NCBI RefSeq assembly: GCF_947499845.1 | Contig: NZ_CANMPM010000016.1 | Coordinates: 1-64,000 of the forward strand | DNA length: 64,000 nucleotides | From: an uncultured Pseudokineococcus sp. | GTDB lineage: Bacteria; Actinomycetota; Actinomycetes; Actinomycetales; Quadrisphaeraceae | Reading direction: 5' to 3' | In this document: positions 1,543-64,000 of the stretch, in pieces | How positions within the stretch are numbered: the stretch's first letter is position 1 | Layout of the letters: each line of letters begins with the position of its first letter | Notes under the pieces: model-generated | What the model was told of the DNA's origin: nothing | Seen by the model: only the letters and a program-made list of their open reading frames with translations | Database searches by the model: none | Position numbers and translations under genes: made by a program

Positions 1543-2510
1543 TCAGCGCGCGCCGGCCGCGCGGACGAGCTGGTCGAGGTACCGGCGACGGACGACGGCG
1601 TGGCGCTCGAGACCGGCGGTCGTCAGCAGCCCCCCGGCCGCCGCCAGGACCTCGGCGGCCCTCACCGCGGCCCCGTAGGCGACCGCGTCGGCGACGACGC
1701 CGGGCCCGACCCGCAGGTGCAGGGAGACGCGCTCCTCACCGGCGACGACCGAGCGGCTGACCCGCTCGCGGACCTGGCGCCGGACGCCGTCGAAGGCCCT
1801 GGCCGCCGCGTCGAGGCCGGCGGCGACCCTGACGACGTCGTCCGTCCGCTGCACCGAGGGCGCTCGCGTCCCGTCCCGGCCCCCCACGTCCAGCAGCACG
1901 AGCTGGAGCTCGCGCAGGAGGTCGTCCATGTGCTCCTTGGCCGCCAGCAGCTCCCGGGCCGGCACATCGGGCACCACGACGACGTCCTCCTCGTCCACGG
2001 CGCCCCCGACGGCGACGGCCCCACCGCCCGGCGCCTCGGCGGCCGGGCCCTCGTCGTCCCACGCCGCCAGGAGGTCCTCCACGCTGAGGTCGGCGTCGTC
2101 GACGGCCCGCCCGTCCACCTCGAACCACACGACCTTGCCGTCGCCCGTCTCCCGAGCCCCCCAGCCGGAGGAGAGCCTGCGCACCAGGAGCAGGCCCCGC
2201 CCCGTCGTCGCGGTCGCGCTGGGGGCGGTGGAGATCGGCAGGACGCCGGACCCGTCGGACACCTCGACCCGCGCCCCGGCCTCGGCCGGGTGCACGGCGA
2301 CCTCGAAGCTCGTCCGGGCGTGCAGGACGGCGTTGCCCGCCAGCTCGGAGACCAGGAGCCCCGCGTCGTGGCCAGGTGCCCCAGGCCGACGGCCACCAGC
2401 GCGCCCTCGACGAGGCTGCGGGCTCCGCGCACCGCCTCGATGCGCGGGGGGAAGGTGCGCCTGGTCGACGACGTCGGCGCGCGCGGCGCGTCCTCGCGTC
2501 GTCCGCCCAT
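1543..2510 (-). pseudogene. Anti-sigma-type ATP-binding (HATPase) protein, interrupted by an apparent frameshift
   Basis: The reading frame opens at ATG 2510 (MGGRREDAPRAPTSS) and runs to about 2372. There the family sequence continues in another frame: the first frame gives LGHLATTRG, the second DAGLLVSELAGNAVLHARTS. Adding one G after LGHLA would restore HLADDAGLLVSELAGNAV, the N-box of HATPase_c_2/RsbW-like proteins; a G-box (TTGRGLLLVRRLSSGWG) follows in the second frame. About 150 uncharacterised residues extend to the stop. Proteins of this fold bind or phosphorylate anti-sigma antagonists. It is either a true single-base-deletion pseudogene or a sequencing error; the clean second frame over about 820 bp argues for recent damage or error. 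Confidence 0.75.
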
Positions 2511-58324: not shown

Positions 58325-59611
58325 TCAGCCCAGGAGGTCGTGCCGGACGACGGACTGCTCGCGCCCCGGCCCGACCCCGACGACCGAGATGCGCGCTCCG
58401 GACATCTCCTCGAGGGCCTCGACGTAGCGCTGCGCGGCGGCGGGCAGGTCGGACCACTCGCGGGCGCCCGAGATGTCGCCCTCCCAGCCCTCGAGCTCGG
58501 TGAGCACGGGCCGGGCGTGGTGCAGGTCGGTCTGCGTCGCCGGCAGCTCGTCGACCCGTCGCCCGTCGACCTCGTAGCCGGTGCACACGGGGATGCGCTC
58601 GCGCCCGCCGAGGACGTCGAGCTTGGTGAGGACGAAGTCCGTGACGCCGTTGACCCGGGCGGCGTAGCGCGCCACCGGGGCGTCGTACCAGCCGCAGCGG
58701 CGGGGGCGCCCCGTCGTCGTGCCGAACTCGGCGCCGGCCTCGCGCAGGGCGTCGCCCTCGGCGCCGTGCAGCTCCGTGGGGAAGGGGCCCTCGCCGACGC
58801 GCGTCGTGTAGGCCTTGACGACGGCGACGACCCGGGAGACCCGCGTCGGGGGGATGCCCGAGCCCGTGCAGGCGCCGCCCGCGGTGGCGCTCGACGACGT
58901 CACGAAGGGGTAGGTGCCGTGGTCGACGTCGAGCATCGTGGCCTGGCCGGCCTCGAGCAGCACCGTGCGCCCCTCGTCGAGGGCCTCGTGGAGGAGGAGG
59001 CCGGTGTCGGCGACCATGGGCCGCAGCCGCTCGGCGTGCTCGAGCAGCTCGTCGACGACCTCGTCGACCTCGATCGCCCGGCGGTTGTAGACCTTGACGA
59101 GCACGTGGTTCTTGAGGTCGAGGGCCGCCTCGACCTTCTGCCGCAGGATGCTGGCGTCGAAGACGTCCTGGACCCGCAGGCCGACGCGGGACATCTTGTC
59201 GGCGTACGTCGGCCCGATGCCGCGGCCCGTCGTGCCGATCTTCCGCGAGCCGAGGAAGCGCTCCGTGACGCGGTCGAGCACCCGGTTGTACGGCGGGATG
59301 AGGTGGGCGCTCGAGCTGACGACGAGCGCGCTCGTGTCGACGCCGCGCGCCTCGAGGCCGTCGAGCTCCTCGAAGAGCACCGAGAGGTCGACGACGACGC
59401 CGTTGCCGATGACCGGGACGACGCCCGGCGTGAGGATGCCGCTGGGCAGGAGGTGCAGGGCGTACGTCTCGCCGCCCACGACGACGGTGTGCCCGGCGTT
59501 GTTGCCGCCGTTGAACTTGACGACGTAGTCCAGGCGGTCGCCGAGCTGGTCGGTCGCCTTGCCCTTCCCCTCGTCCCCCCACTGGGCACCGACGAGCACG
59601 ATGGCGGGCAC
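58325..59611 (-). CDS. purA: Adenylosuccinate synthetase
   Basis: First step from IMP to AMP, using GTP and aspartate. The 428 residues carry the GTP-binding [68 protein letters not shown], and [14 protein letters not shown]. Length is canonical. GTG 59611 start with GAGGAAGCAGG some 20 bases upstream. The DUF3151 gene lies 199 bp upstream on the same strand, a neighbour pair common in actinobacteria. Confidence 0.96.
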
Positions 59612-59810
59612 GGGCGTGCACCTGCTTCCTCAGACGACGGACGGGACGGGCGCGGGGCGGACCGCCGCGCGGCCCCGTCGCGGTCGACCGGGCCGTCGAC
59701 AGGGGCGTCGACCGGGGCGCGAGGCTACCGCGCACGGCGGCGCGGGCGCCCAGCGCCGGACCGGTCGGGTACCGGGGCGGCCGGCGCCGGACGGGTCAGC
59801 GCTGGACCGG

Positions 59811-60260
59811 TCAGCGCTGGGGCAGCAGCTCGACGGGGGCCTGCGCGTCGCAGTCGGCGAGGAAGCCGGCGCACCGGTCGGCCTCGTCGCCCTCCCCCAC
59901 CGCCGCCGCGGCCCGGGCCAGGGCGGCGAGCGCGCGCAGGAAGCCGCGGTTGGGCTCGTGCGCGTACGGCACGGGCCCGGCGCCGCGCCAGCCCGCGCGC
60001 CGGAGGGCGTCGAGGCCGCGGTGGTAGCCCGTGCGGGCGTAGGCGTAGGCCTGGACGACCTCGCCGTCGGCCAGGGCGTCCTCCGCGAGGACGGCCCACG
60101 GCAGGCTCGCCGCCGGCGTCCGGGCGGCGACCTCCGCCGCGTCCTGCCCCTGCTCGAGGGCCCGCGCCGCGGGCGCCTCCAGGTCGTCCGGCAGGAGGGT
60201 CGCGGGCGGCCCGCCGAGGAGGTCGCGGGAGCCGCGCGCGGGGGGCGTGGGTGCGCTCAT
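59811..60260 (-). CDS. DUF3151 family protein
   Basis: Actinobacterial protein of 149 residues, function unknown. Family landmarks: RDLLGGPPATLLP, PWAVLAEDALADGEVVQAYAYARTGYHRGLDALRRAGWRG, PVPYAHEPNRGFLRALAALARAAAAVGE, and CAGFLADCDAQA. It is helical, TPR-like in rhythm. CACACT six bases before ATG 60260 marks a leaderless start. Confidence 0.9.
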   Translation of the reverse strand: MSAPTPPARGSRDLLGGPPATLLPDDLEAPAARALEQGQDAAEVAARTPAASLPWAVLAEDALADGEVVQAYAYARTGYHRGLDALRRAGWRGAGPVPYAHEPNRGFLRALAALARAAAAVGEGDEADRCAGFLADCDAQAPVELLPQR

Positions 60261-60471
60261 GGCGCCAGTGTGGCCGACGGGGCGGGCACCGCCCGCCCGG
60301 CGCCGCCCGTCGCCGCCCGTCCACGCCCGGACGCCCGCCCGGCCCCGCCGGCCCCGCGTCCGACCCGCGGGGTGCGTCGCCCGTGCCCGGTGCGCCGGGA
60401 ACGCCTGACCCGGACGGGTCGTCGCGCTCGCCGCGGAGGCCGGGCCCCGGTGCCCCGGGTACCGTGCGGGG

Positions 60472-60546
60472 GTGATGCCGAGCACGGCGGGGGCCTCCCG
60501 CGCACGACGGGGCGGCCCCTCCCGCGATCGGGGGGCCGCCCGGTGA
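60472..60546 (+). CDS. Possible 24-residue upstream ORF coupled to the STAS gene
   Basis: GTG 60472 lies six bases after a TACCGT -10, the leaderless pattern of this genome, and opens a 24-codon frame (VMPSTAGASRARR ... GAAR) whose TGA overlaps the STAS GTG as GTGA. If the promoter is real, the ribosome would read this peptide first. The Arg-rich sequence is not recognised. Confidence 0.4.
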   Translation: MMPSTAGASRARRGGPSRDRGAAR

Positions 60547-60899
60547 TCGAGCTGTCGACGACCGCGACGGCGACGGTCCTCGTCGTCGCCGGCGACCTCG
60601 ACCTGTCGGCCCGGAACGAGTTCCCGGAGATCGTGGCGCGGGTCAGCGGCCTGCGGCGCCAGCTCCTCGTCGTGGACCTGTGCCGCACGACCTTCCTCGA
60701 CTCGACGGGCGCGGCCTTCCTCATCTCCCTCGCCGACGCCACGGCGCGACGGGGCGGCGTGACGTCGCTGCGCGGCGGCGACGACCGCACCCTCTACGTG
60801 CTCGAGGTCTGCGGCGCCCTCGACATGTTCCGCGTGGTCGAGGACCACCGCTGCGAGCCGGACCAGGCGCCGAGCCCCTGGGCGGGCGCCCGACGCTGA
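60543..60899 (+). CDS. STAS-domain anti-sigma factor antagonist
   Basis: RsbV/SpoIIAA-like protein of 118 residues. The STAS fold runs VLVVAGDLDLSARNEF, then LLVVDLCRTTFLDSTGAAFLISLADATARR, with the phosphorylatable Ser in DSTG near residue 55. GTG 60543 overlaps the short upstream ORF as GTGA. It is convergent with the LOV-PP2C-kinase gene, which could phosphorylate or dephosphorylate it. A short Pro-rich tail ends the protein. Confidence 0.88.
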   Translation: MIELSTTATATVLVVAGDLDLSARNEFPEIVARVSGLRRQLLVVDLCRTTFLDSTGAAFLISLADATARRGGVTSLRGGDDRTLYVLEVCGALDMFRVVEDHRCEPDQAPSPWAGARR

Positions 60900-60982
60900 C
60901 CGGTGCAGCGCTGACCGGCGCTCCCGACGCGTCCGCTGCGCCCCACCCGCCCCGCCGACCCACCCGGGCCGGCGCGCGCGGG

Positions 60983-63163
60983 TCAGCCGCGCCCGCCGCC
61001 GGTCGCCGGCGGCTGGTCGGGCAGCCGGGCCCAGACGGTCTTGCCGGAGCCGGAGTGGCGCCATCCCCAGTCCGAGAGCCGCTCGACGACGTGCAGGCCG
61101 AAGCCGCCGGGACCCTCGCGCCGCTCGGCCACGACGCCGGGGGGCGCGGGATTGGCGTCGTCGACCTCCACGAGCAGCCCCCGCTCGTCGTGCTGCAGGC
61201 GCAGCCCCACCGGCCCCCAGCCGTGCAGGACGGCGTTGCCGACGAGCTCGGAGACGACGAGCTCGGCCTGGGCGGTGCTGGGCAGCCCCCAGAGCCGTCC
61301 GAGCCGGGACGCCTTGCGGCGGGCGCGGGCGACGGACCCCGGGTCCCCGGGGAGCTGCCAGCGGCGGCGGCGGGGGCCGGGGCGGGTCGGCGCCGGGCCG
61401 GGCACCCGCACGACGACGACGGCGAGGTCGTCCTCGGGCACGTCGCCCAGCACCTCGAGCAGGTGCTCGCCGGTGCCCGCGGCGTCCGTGCCCCACGCGC
61501 CCTCGCAGGCCTCGACGAGGGCGGCGACGCCGTCGCGCAGGGAGCGGGACCGGCGCTCGACGAGCCCGTCGGTGCACAGCACGAGCACGTCGCCGGGCCC
61601 CGCCTCGACGACCGCCGTCGAGCGCGGCCGGTCGCCGACCCCCACGAGGACGCCCTCGCCCCCCGAGAGCGCCCGCGCACGCCCGGCCTGCACGAGGACG
61701 GGCGGCAGGTGGCCGGCGCGCGACCACGACACCTCCCACGTGCCGTCGCCGAGGTCCTCGAGCCGCGCGTAGAGCAGGCTGGCCGAGCGGCGGATGCGCA
61801 TGCCGGCGACGAGCTGGTCCACCCGCATGAGGACGGTCCCGGGCTCCTCCTGCTCGTGGGCGTAGGCGCGCACCACCGAGCGCAGCTGCCCCATCGCGGC
61901 CGCCGCCTCGATGTCGTGGCCGACGACGTCGCCGACGACGAGCCCGACGGCGTCGGGGCCCGGCGTCATGACGTCGAACCAGTCGCCCCCGACCTGCGCG
62001 TGGTCCGCGCTCGGCACGTAGTAGGACCACACGTCGAGGTCGGGCACGTGGGGCTGCTCGGGCAGCATGCTGCGCTGCAGCGCCTCGGCGAGCAGGTGCT
62101 GCTGCTCGAGCAGCCGCGCGCTCGCCAGGGACAGCCCCAGGCGGCGGGCCACCTCGACGAGCAGGTCGACGTCGTCGTCCTCGAGGCCCTCGCCCCCGCC
62201 GGCGGGCGCGTCCGCGACGACGAGGACCCCGAGGACGCCGTCGCGCCCGGGCACCGGGACGGAGAGGACGGGCCGGGGCCCGCCGCCGCGAGCCGCGTCG
62301 TCGGCCGGCTCGACGAGGAGGCGGTCGAGCAGCCCGGCGAGCCACCCGCTCGCGGCGGGGCCCGCGCCGGGCTCGGCCGGGTCGGCGGGCGGGGCGCCGG
62401 CGCCCGCGAGGCGGGCGCGCCGCGGCCCCTCCTCGCGGCCGAGGGCCTGGTCGACGAGCGGGTCCAGCCCCTCGCGGGCGCCGAGGAGCGAGAAGGGCGG
62501 CACGGACGGCAGCTCGTCGACGCCCGTGACGGCGCCGAGGCGCAGCCCGTCCTGCACGAGCAGCACGGCCGACCAGGGCACGAGGCGCTCGAGGACGCCC
62601 GTGAGCCGGGCGAGGGACCGGCGGACGTCGAGCTCGGCGACCGCCTCGGCGACGTCGGCGAGGAGCGACAGGCGCCCGCGCGCCGCGGTGGCGGCGCGCT
62701 CGGCCTCGACGCGGGCCGTGACGTCCACCTGCACGCCGACGCGGTGCACGAGGTCGCCCCGCTCGTCGAGCACCGGCGAGACCGACACCTCGTTCCAGAA
62801 GGGCGTCCCGTCGCGCCGGACGTTGCGCAGCACGACCGTGACCGGCTCGCGGGCCGCCATGCCGGCGCGCAGGCGCTCGAGCTCGACGGGGTCGGTGCCC
62901 TCGTCCTGCAGGAAGCGGCAGTTGCGCCCGACCGCGTCCTCGGCGGCGTACCCCGTGGTGCGGGTGAAGGCGTCGTTCACCCAGACGAGGGGGTCGTCGG
63001 CCTGCCGCGGGTCGCTGACGACGACGGGCACGTCGGTCGCCAGGGCGGCCAGGGCGGCGAGTGCGGTGCTGTCGTCACCGGGCGCCGACGAGGGGGTGCC
63101 GGGAGGGACGCCGTCGCCGTCCGGGCCTCCGGTCGGTCGTCCACCGGCCACCGGGTTGACCAC
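60983..63163 (-). CDS. Blue-light LOV receptor with GAF, PP2C (SpoIIE) and HATPase domains
   Basis: Signalling protein of 726 residues. The N-terminal PAS domain (about 40-150) is a true LOV domain: WVNDAFTRTTGY, GRNCRFLQ with the photoadduct Cys at residue 82, FWNEVSVSPV and VGVQVDVT, all flavin contacts. A GAF-like domain (about 165-380) follows, then PP2C/SpoIIE (QVGGDWFDVM, VVGDVVGHDIEAA, LVLCTDGLVE) and a C-terminal HATPase (VVSELVGNAVLHGWG, GPGGFGLHVVERLSDWG). It thus combines phosphatase and anti-sigma-kinase-like modules. GTG 63163 follows GGAGC. Flanked by two STAS genes, it should report blue light into partner switching. Confidence 0.92.
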   Translation of the reverse strand: MVNPVAGGRPTGGPDGDGVPPGTPSSAPGDDSTALAALAALATDVPVVVSDPRQADDPLVWVNDAFTRTTGYAAEDAVGRNCRFLQDEGTDPVELERLRAGMAAREPVTVVLRNVRRDGTPFWNEVSVSPVLDERGDLVHRVGVQVDVTARVEAERAATAARGRLSLLADVAEAVAELDVRRSLARLTGVLERLVPWSAVLLVQDGLRLGAVTGVDELPSVPPFSLLGAREGLDPLVDQALGREEGPRRARLAGAGAPPADPAEPGAGPAASGWLAGLLDRLLVEPADDAARGGGPRPVLSVPVPGRDGVLGVLVVADAPAGGGEGLEDDDVDLLVEVARRLGLSLASARLLEQQHLLAEALQRSMLPEQPHVPDLDVWSYYVPSADHAQVGGDWFDVMTPGPDAVGLVVGDVVGHDIEAAAAMGQLRSVVRAYAHEQEEPGTVLMRVDQLVAGMRIRRSASLLYARLEDLGDGTWEVSWSRAGHLPPVLVQAGRARALSGGEGVLVGVGDRPRSTAVVEAGPGDVLVLCTDGLVERRSRSLRDGVAALVEACEGAWGTDAAGTGEHLLEVLGDVPEDDLAVVVVRVPGPAPTRPGPRRRRWQLPGDPGSVARARRKASRLGRLWGLPSTAQAELVVSELVGNAVLHGWGPVGLRLQHDERGLLVEVDDANPAPPGVVAERREGPGGFGLHVVERLSDWGWRHSGSGKTVWARLPDQPPATGGGRG

Positions 63164-63245
63164 GCGCTGCTCCGATCGTCTAGCGTGACCGTCGTTCCGC
63201 GGCGTGGCCTGCGGCACCACCGGGGAGAGCGGGTCGGAGGTCTCG

Positions 63246-63689
63246 ATGTCGGGCGAAGGTAGCACCGGGGCACCGCCCAGCGCGGGCGTCACCACAGCGG
63301 GCGGCGACGACGCCGACGCGGGCTCGGTCCACGTGATCATGGGTCGCACGAAGACGCGCATCGTCCTGTCGGGCGAGATCGACGCGCTGGTGAGCCCCGA
63401 CCTCGTCGAGGCCGCCGCCGAGGCCGAGGACGCCGGTCGGCCCGTCGAGGTCGACGCCCACCACGTCACCTTCATGGACTCCACGGGCGTGGCCTTCCTC
63501 GCGCGCCTGGCCTCGCGCTCGTCCACGCGCCTGGTGCTCATCCGGCCGCCCGACGTCGTCCGCTTCCTCATCGAGGTCACGTCGATCAACGACCTGCTCG
63601 ACGTCGTCGACGACGACCCGGGCGTCGACGACTCGCTGCCCGAGCACACCCCCGACGACGACCCCGACGGGCCGGACCGCGCGGCCTGA
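63246..63689 (+). CDS. STAS-domain anti-sigma factor antagonist
   Basis: RsbV-like protein of 147 residues. The STAS domain (about 33-120) reads TRIVLSGEIDALVSPDLVEAAAEAEDAG, VEVDAHHVTFMDSTGVAFLARLASRSS with the phosphorylatable Ser in DSTG, and LVLIRPPDVVRFLIEVTSINDLLDVVDD. A Ser/Gly tail precedes it and an acidic DDDPDG tail follows. ATG 63246 follows GGAGG. It is divergent from the LOV-PP2C-HATPase gene (82-bp gap), strongly suggesting they act together. Confidence 0.9.
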   Translation: MSGEGSTGAPPSAGVTTAGGDDADAGSVHVIMGRTKTRIVLSGEIDALVSPDLVEAAAEAEDAGRPVEVDAHHVTFMDSTGVAFLARLASRSSTRLVLIRPPDVVRFLIEVTSINDLLDVVDDDPGVDDSLPEHTPDDDPDGPDRAA

Positions 63690-63765
63690 CCCGCGCCCGC
63701 GCGTCAGCGCACCGGCCCCGGGCCGCCGCTCGGGGCCGGTGAGCTCCGTCAGAGGCTCGGGTCCG

Positions 63766-64000
63766 TCAGAGGCTGAGCACGACGCCGCCGAGCGCGGCGA
63801 CGGGCAGGCCGACGAGGAGGAAGGCGCCGAAGCCGGTGAGGGCGCCGTCGCCGCCCCGCTCGGCGCGGCGGTCGGGGCCCGCGGCGAGGCCCCCGCCCGC
63901 GGTGCCGATGTCGACGCTCGCGCCGCGCGTGAGCTGGTCGGTGGACGTGAGGCCGGCGAGCCCGCCCGCGACGATCGCCGCGACGCCCCACGCCGAGGCG
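63766..64000 (-). CDS. C-terminal part of an unidentified membrane protein (runs off the window)
   Basis: The last 78 codons of a minus-strand gene whose start lies beyond the right edge. The visible end has two hydrophobic helices, ASAWGVAAIVAGGLAGL and GFGAFLLVGLPVAALGGVVLSL, joined by a polar loop (TDQLTRGASVDIGTAG, then DRRAERGGDG). The family cannot be named. The 10-mer around its stop (GTCAGAGGCT) is repeated just downstream at 63749-63758. Confidence 0.6.
   Translation of the reverse strand, partial: ASAWGVAAIVAGGLAGLTSTDQLTRGASVDIGTAGGGLAAGPDRRAERGGDGALTGFGAFLLVGLPVAALGGVVLSL

Follow-up and report, generated by a model that had tools for sequence, protein, structure and literature searches.

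The window, i.e., the whole 64,000-nucleotide stretch of Pseudokineococcus DNA analyzed here, contains a gene for a putative receptor protein with LOV, GAF-like, PP2C and HATPase regions, located between two genes encoding STAS proteins (STAS1 and STAS2). With moderate confidence, it is proposed that these three genes form a module in which a bifunctional kinase/phosphatase acts on two STAS partners, that the enzyme is light-gated in this organism and that the ancestral output of the module was probably not SigB. The location of the receptor gene between two STAS genes, given in a preliminary description of the locus, was borne out; it is found again in relatives, where the catalytic residues are fully conserved, and is therefore not a product of chance. 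STAS1 is convergent with the receptor gene, with a gap of 83 nucleotides, and STAS2 is divergent from it, with a gap of 82 nucleotides (Table 1). The "five-gene-arm arrangement" mentioned in the same description was not identified, and three genes are conserved.

A STAS1 profile was run against 396 evenly drawn genomes of the order, and the neighborhoods of all 64 positives were examined. The profile had one match in each of these 64 genomes, which represented seven families. The STAS2 gene was found in all 64 genomes, adjoining STAS1 or the receptor gene, and the receptor gene was found in 56, in every one of which STAS2 was divergent from it. The order and orientation seen in the window were present in 48 of the 64 genomes, with STAS1 lying 0.7–2.9 kb off in five of the 48 and with the module split over two contigs (L127 and L128) in one of them, G005. 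STAS1 was on the strand of the receptor gene in eight genomes (seven downstream, one upstream), and a tandem STAS1–STAS2 pair without the receptor gene was found in another eight (L167–L174, from genomes G004, G002 and G007–G012). In genome G023, the receptor gene and STAS2 were located on a 12-kb stretch without STAS1, and the STAS1 profile had no match in this genome. In a class-wide draw, STAS1 was detected in 4 of 394 genomes, all of the same order. The first search yielded 14 further full-length loci from Actinotalea, Cellulomonas and related metagenome-assembled genomes, with STAS1 and STAS2 beside the receptor gene in each; locus L024, titled Proteobacteria, is probably a mis-binned contig. 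Thus, the linkage, for which the preliminary description had suggested a check in relatives, is conserved.

The output part of the receptor was considerably more uniform than its sensory part. Among 68 receptor rows, the median pairwise identity was 0.64 in PP2C and 0.65 in HATPase but fell to 0.27 in the sensor and 0.33 in the GAF-like region, so the output core is held while the sensor drifts (these rows exclude L127 and L018, the latter being identical to L205). The metal-binding Asp residues of PP2C were invariant in all 70 receptor rows (69 different), as were the HATPase Glu and Asn of the N box, the Asp of the G1 box and both glycines of the G2 box. The union of PP2C and HATPase in one protein, as described previously, is thus upheld, with the catalytic residues kept in every row. 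A separate 17-row alignment consisted of 14 full-length loci (of the 48 from the first search), the window, L125 and L126; it left out L013 (the same locus as L125), L014 and L022 (halves of the P. marinus gene) and shorter or different LOV, PAS and PP2C matches.

Pfam models matched the receptor at residues 56–150 (PAS_9, E = 8.4e-19), 404–587 (SpoIIE/PP2C, 1.5e-38) and 605–713 (HATPase_c_2, 6.5e-10); within the 726 residues, there was no Pfam STAS match, i.e., no STAS domain in the same chain of the kind found in Rv1364c. The AlphaFold model, built from an input alignment of 17 sequences, had a mean pLDDT (predicted local distance difference test) of 80.1 and comprised, in this order, a PAS/LOV fold followed by a long helical linker, a GAF-like region of alpha/beta type, another long helix and the PP2C and HATPase domains. 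The GAF domain of the preliminary description was retained in part: a GAF-like region is present in the model, whereas the GAF models of Pfam remained below their cut-offs (GAF_3, 22.2 bits vs. 27), which makes this the weakest domain call. The top Foldseek match of the model was the Rv1364c structure containing PP2C and kinase parts (RsbU and RsbW domains; E = 2e-20, 363 alignment columns). In a second structural comparison, which dealt with the PP2C and LOV parts and hardly addressed GAF-like and HATPase, the PP2C part matched the Rv1364c structure with Z = 27.7 and a root-mean-square deviation of 2.4 Å over 221 residues; by sequence, the PP2C of the receptor matched Rv1364c with E = 1.6e-21. 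The HATPase part alone gave no match at 0.1 against PDB sequences. The best PDB sequence matches of the LOV part were LOV-bearing chains (4.8e-29 and weaker), and this part of the model overlaid the LOV crystal structure 9vf7 at 1.2 Å over 138 residues. The long helix at residues 329–365 precedes PP2C in the model and could, by analogy with SpoIIE (PMC5468089), act as a switch.

The acceptor Ser of the DSxG motif was present in all 64 STAS1 and all 64 STAS2 sequences of the order sample (the STAS1 row for L128, a cross-match on STAS2, was uncounted). In the window, both proteins read DSTG, in agreement with the two DSTG proteins reported in the preliminary description. The best PDB matches of both were SpoIIAA chains, although weak (4.6e-4 and 7.4e-4). 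Three cysteines of STAS1 were also nearly fixed, namely, Cys47 (63/64), Cys90 (60/64) and Cys104 (63/64), and they may have a function that involves redox chemistry or a metal.

The gap shared by the receptor gene and STAS2 contains a 17-bp element, CTCCGATCGTCTAGCGT, which was exact in 18 and had at most one mismatch in 23 of the 64 loci, from six families, while none of 1280 mononucleotide shuffles came within three mismatches of it. At no more than one mismatch, the element was found in 24 of the 396 genomes, with one site each, and the reversed pattern was found in none. Of these sites, 23 were module loci, and the 24th was at the receptor/STAS2 pair of G023. The receptor-less genome G004 retains ATCGTCTAGCGT, at almost the distance from STAS2 seen elsewhere; it belongs to the genus of the window, which points to a loss of the receptor there. 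Several loci of family f13 carried a related block, ATCGTCTACGGTGT. It weighs against the element that in 35 of the 64 loci, the best match had five or more mismatches, a level that shuffles also reach; among these were G003, one of the genomes with a LOV Cys, and f13 loci that carry the related block. The 14-base core had one exact site in the genome of the window, no others at one mismatch and nine at two mismatches (15 for the reversed control); it is thus not a genome-wide motif. The element contains CTCC, the complement of the GGAG ribosome site of the receptor gene. No Rfam match was found in positions 59000–64000, and scans with sigma-70 and terminator consensuses gave no sites, so the promoter reading of the element draws on its conservation. 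The hexamer TAGCGT may be a −10 hexamer for STAS2 of the housekeeping type of actinobacterial promoters, and TTGACC is located at 63156–63161, 19 nucleotides upstream of it. The element may serve as a promoter or operator shared by the divergent STAS2 and receptor genes. The same gap bears on the supposition that the STAS proteins are not substrates and that their genes are bystanders, kept near the receptor gene by a stable fba–purA neighborhood. We regard this as very improbable: fba, DUF3151 and purA do lie beside many of the 19 module loci listed, and eight genomes have STAS1–STAS2 without the receptor, but STAS2 was divergent from the receptor gene in 56 of 56 genomes, even where STAS1 had moved or turned, and the element in the gap that they share is confined to that gap.

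The sensor was the most variable part of the receptor. The LOV core of the window is complete, with the Cys of GRNCRFLQ, the downstream Asn, the Asn of FWN and the Gln all in place, and the intact photochemical core described earlier was thus confirmed. Light as a general input of the module did not hold up, since the Cys was found in just 5 of the 56 receptors of the order sample (those of G000, the genome of the window, and of G003, G005, G006 and G027). Two further receptors (G146 and G262) kept both Asn residues and the Gln, with Pro in place of Cys, and the other 49 had neither the Cys nor the full Asn/Asn/Gln set, according to a rough alignment of diverged sensors. Among the 14 orthologs of the first search, the Cys position was occupied by Pro in 13 and by Ala in one, and 10 kept Asn, Asn and Gln; these loci lean toward LOV-like sensors, the search patterns having been taken from the window protein, whereas the order sample does not. 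Thus, some Cellulomonadaceae have LOV-like domains in which another residue, mostly Pro, takes the place of Cys. The best PDB matches of the Cys-less domain of L016 were still LOV-bearing chains (4.8e-32). In a tree of 45 LOV domains (5 module domains with Cys, 15 module domains without Cys and 25 others), the Cys-less module domains formed one group, and the Cys-bearing ones fell with other LOV proteins (branch support 100/99). A constraint of monophyly on all module LOV domains was not rejected (approximately unbiased test, p-AU = 0.171), so both Cys loss and domain replacement are candidate explanations. Light input in the lineage of the window is probably genuine but local.

Other LOV proteins with Cys were also present in these bacteria. 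The genome of the window encodes four more with GRNCRFLQ, on contigs C3, C10, C26 and C30 (L062, L065, L064 and L063, respectively), and that of C3 also has a PP2C-like match. Six Cellulomonas/Actinotalea loci (L027, L028, L030, L032, L034 and L036) contain a separate Cys-bearing LOV gene (GRNCRFL in four and GRNCRVL in two), in which the match to the receptor stops before HATPase and whose neighbors, named according to our reading, are transporter-like and nucleotidyltransferase-like genes.

The preliminary description had suggested that the receptor might toggle one sigma factor. No positive evidence for this was obtained. No SigB/F/G-like, primary or FliA/WhiG-like sigma factor was found in any frame of 80 module loci (961 kb), using as queries SigB-type and primary sigma factors and the two other sigma matches of the genome of the window; a match in L210 was rejected as an unrelated shadow frame. 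At E ≤ 1e-60, the SigB/F/G family model matched 74 of the 396 genomes, namely, 16 of the 64 with the module vs. 58 of the 332 others, so the module and SigB-type sigma factors do not travel together, and 48 of the 64 module genomes had no match at this threshold. When 50 module genomes were searched down to 1e-15, none had a match over the family cut-off, 49 had some match, and G304 (89% complete) had none. Exactly one match, of 130–134 bits, which is the range of the primary sigma factor, was found in 16 of the 50. In three of these (G037, G053 and G338), it was confirmed as the primary sigma factor; the G338 query scored at least 1000 bits against G037 and G053 and about 700 bits against the primary-type sigma on contig C22 of the genome of the window. 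The uniform score suggests that the other 13 are primary sigma factors as well. None of the 16 genomes has lost the receptor, either STAS gene or any catalytic residue, which makes a SigB-type sigma factor unlikely as the general target of the module. This raises the question of what a partner switch acts upon in cells seemingly devoid of any SigB-type sigma factor.

Several observations weigh against the interpretation of the module as a bifunctional enzyme with two STAS substrates and a non-SigB output. In kinases of the RsbW/SpoIIAB type, the G1 box reads D-x-G-x-G. The receptor has D-x-N-P in 69 of the 70 rows (N-S in one), and kinase activity is therefore not certain. The same departure, together with the 19 HATPase_c_2 matches in the genome of the window (E ≤ 0.001), speaks for a receptor that is a light-gated phosphatase only, whose HATPase is a regulatory or docking nucleotide binder, while other RsbW-like kinases phosphorylate the STAS proteins; this is unlikely, given that none of the 70 rows departs from the N-box Glu and Asn, the Asp or the G2 glycines and that HATPase is conserved to the same degree as PP2C. 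The STAS1–STAS2 pairs in the eight receptor-less genomes imply a receptor-independent use of these proteins or another enzyme acting on them. As for the output, 33 of the 50 module genomes had two to five sigma matches, and any of the additional ones, which for the most part scored about 60–131 bits and so fell short of the cut-off, could be a target; SigB-like genes just below the cut-off were present in G175 and G282, and a SigB-like gene in two frames was present in G294. All five genomes with a LOV Cys have a SigB-type sigma factor, although they are related to each other and thus are not independent evidence. An ECF (extracytoplasmic function) sigma-like frame was located near the module locus of G244 (L190:4036–4791; 28.9 bits to an ECF-like protein of the genome of the window), the search for ECF sigma factors having covered the module loci.

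The SigB-type sigma factors of the genomes with a LOV Cys lend some weight to a canonical toggle, in which the receptor sets the phosphorylation of one or both STAS proteins and thereby frees a SigB-type sigma factor from an RsbW-like anti-sigma factor, or in which the HATPase of the receptor itself holds the sigma factor. The genome of the window has one SigBFG sigma over the cut-off (249.8 bits, C7:169830–170468). Upstream of it and on its strand lies a gene for an RsbW-like HATPase (C7:170795–171139), and contig C7 contains no match to the STAS model PF01740. This sigma gene is unlinked to the module, and the module persists with its catalytic residues in genomes with a single, primary-range sigma match. 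We consider the toggle unlikely as an account of the module, but a sigma output is possible in the light-sensing lineage, the genome of the window included.

According to the favored interpretation, that of a kinase/phosphatase with two STAS partners, the RsbW-like HATPase domain would phosphorylate the DSxG Ser of both co-encoded STAS proteins, and the SpoIIE/RsbU-like PP2C domain would dephosphorylate the same residue. In Pseudokineococcus and a few relatives, blue light would produce a flavin–Cys adduct in the LOV domain, biasing the balance between kinase and phosphatase, and the signal may pass through the linker helices and the GAF-like domain to the helix before PP2C. STAS1 and STAS2 would thereby capture or let go their downstream targets, among which a SigB/F/G sigma factor was probably not the ancestral one. 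Relatives would use this enzyme and its two STAS proteins with different inputs, mostly other than LOV. The analysis thus establishes the genes with their conservation and linkage, the catalytic and acceptor residues, the variation of the sensor, the element in the gap and the scarcity of SigB-type sigma factors, whereas the binding of flavin, the two enzyme activities, the role of both STAS proteins as substrates, the direction of the light effect and the output are inferred.

Table 1. Position of the module genes, receptor regions and conserved element in the window
Feature	Position	Strand or location	Basis or remark
Receptor, LOV–(GAF-like)–PP2C–HATPase, 726 amino acids	60983–63163	minus	Pfam, ortholog alignment, model
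STAS1, 118 amino acids, putative DSTG acceptor Ser54	60543–60899	plus	Pfam STAS, 8.7e-9
STAS2, 147 amino acids, putative DSTG acceptor Ser79	63246–63689	plus	Pfam STAS_2, 5.4e-16
17-bp element CTCCGATCGTCTAGCGT	63170–63186	receptor/STAS2 gap	conservation
LOV	about residues 44–150	receptor	Cys in GRNCRFLQ
Linker helix	residues 149–175	receptor	model
GAF-like region	residues 176–347	receptor	weakest domain call
Long helix	residues 329–365	receptor	model; ends near LQRSMLP
PP2C	residues 372–588	receptor	
HATPase	residues 600–714	receptor	

The receptor gene starts with GTG at 63163, with GGAG six nucleotides upstream, and its stop is at 60983; the identity of the receptor was 96–98% to that of P. 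marinus JCM 14547 and 81–82% to that of an uncultured Pseudokineococcus. For STAS1, a start codon was found in the column of GTG 60543 in 16 of 16 aligned orthologs, the starts having been picked by a script near that column. The start at 60472 given for STAS1 in the preliminary description is out of frame and is the first codon of a 24-codon frame upstream. This frame (60472–60546, plus strand) ends in a TGA that overlaps the STAS1 start codon (GTGA), which may be due to chance. The neighbors of the module in the window, by Pfam, are fba, an RNA methylase gene, DUF3151 and purA, and the same neighbors appear at the 19 module loci among 27 loci whose genes were listed, under names that rest on similarity or on our reading of the lists. 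A partial HATPase_c_2 match (26.4 bits, below the family cut-off) is located at the other end of the window (2122–2361, minus strand).

Compared with known systems, the module is a variant of the partner-switching kind, and a sigma toggle is the weaker reading. The presence of both antagonistic activities in one protein, which the preliminary description had considered unusual, is already known in Rv1364c and SypE. The inputs of SypE and HsbR are of the response-regulator type, and HsbR contains both serine kinase and phosphatase parts. Much as proposed for the module, SypE of Vibrio fischeri, a protein with kinase and phosphatase parts, sets a single-domain STAS protein in SypE/SypA (PMC8256260), and a single-domain STAS protein is likewise set in HsbR/HsbA/HsbD of Pseudomonas (PMC7647112); both STAS switches have an output other than, or in addition to, a sigma factor. 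The SypE and HsbR systems contain one STAS protein each, whereas the module described here has two, under a LOV or PAS input. Rv1364c of Mycobacterium tuberculosis is similar in having a PAS sensor and in combining PP2C and an RsbW-like kinase in one chain that acts on STAS; it differs in that the STAS domain belongs to its own chain and in that it regulates SigF (PMC9138534). In the window, in contrast, the two STAS proteins have genes of their own, the sensor is of the LOV type, a GAF-like domain is added and no sigma factor is linked.

The effectors of LOV domains include SpoIIE-type phosphatases and STAS domains (PMC4844311), and LOV–SpoIIE receptors and LOV–STAS proteins of the YtvA type resemble the module in that LOV feeds a phosphatase or STAS into partner switching; the part of this source that was available mentions no fusion of kinase and phosphatase flanked by two STAS genes. 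No description of a receptor with two flanking STAS genes was found in the literature searched, a weak absence, as most subscription papers were beyond reach. We tentatively suggest that this is an undescribed module of this actinobacterial order, composed of a bifunctional enzyme, two dedicated STAS proteins, a divergent-promoter element present at a single site in many lineages, a target not of the SigB type and an interchangeable or decaying sensor, which would be a true light receptor in few lineages and Cys-less, LOV-like and possibly redox-sensing in others. In Yee et al. (2015), about 70 GenBank entries of LOV-like proteins with the Cys replaced, by Pro among others, are reported, and flavin binding and photoreduction are shown for one Cys-less LOV-like protein (PMC4682037). 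What distinguishes the module from these proteins is that its Cys-bearing and Cys-less forms share an orthologous receptor and gene neighborhood. They form a natural series, in which the output core is fixed and the sensor passes from a photochemical LOV domain through a Cys-less LOV-like domain to a diverged PAS domain or none, and which allows a direct test of the loss or rewiring of LOV signaling.

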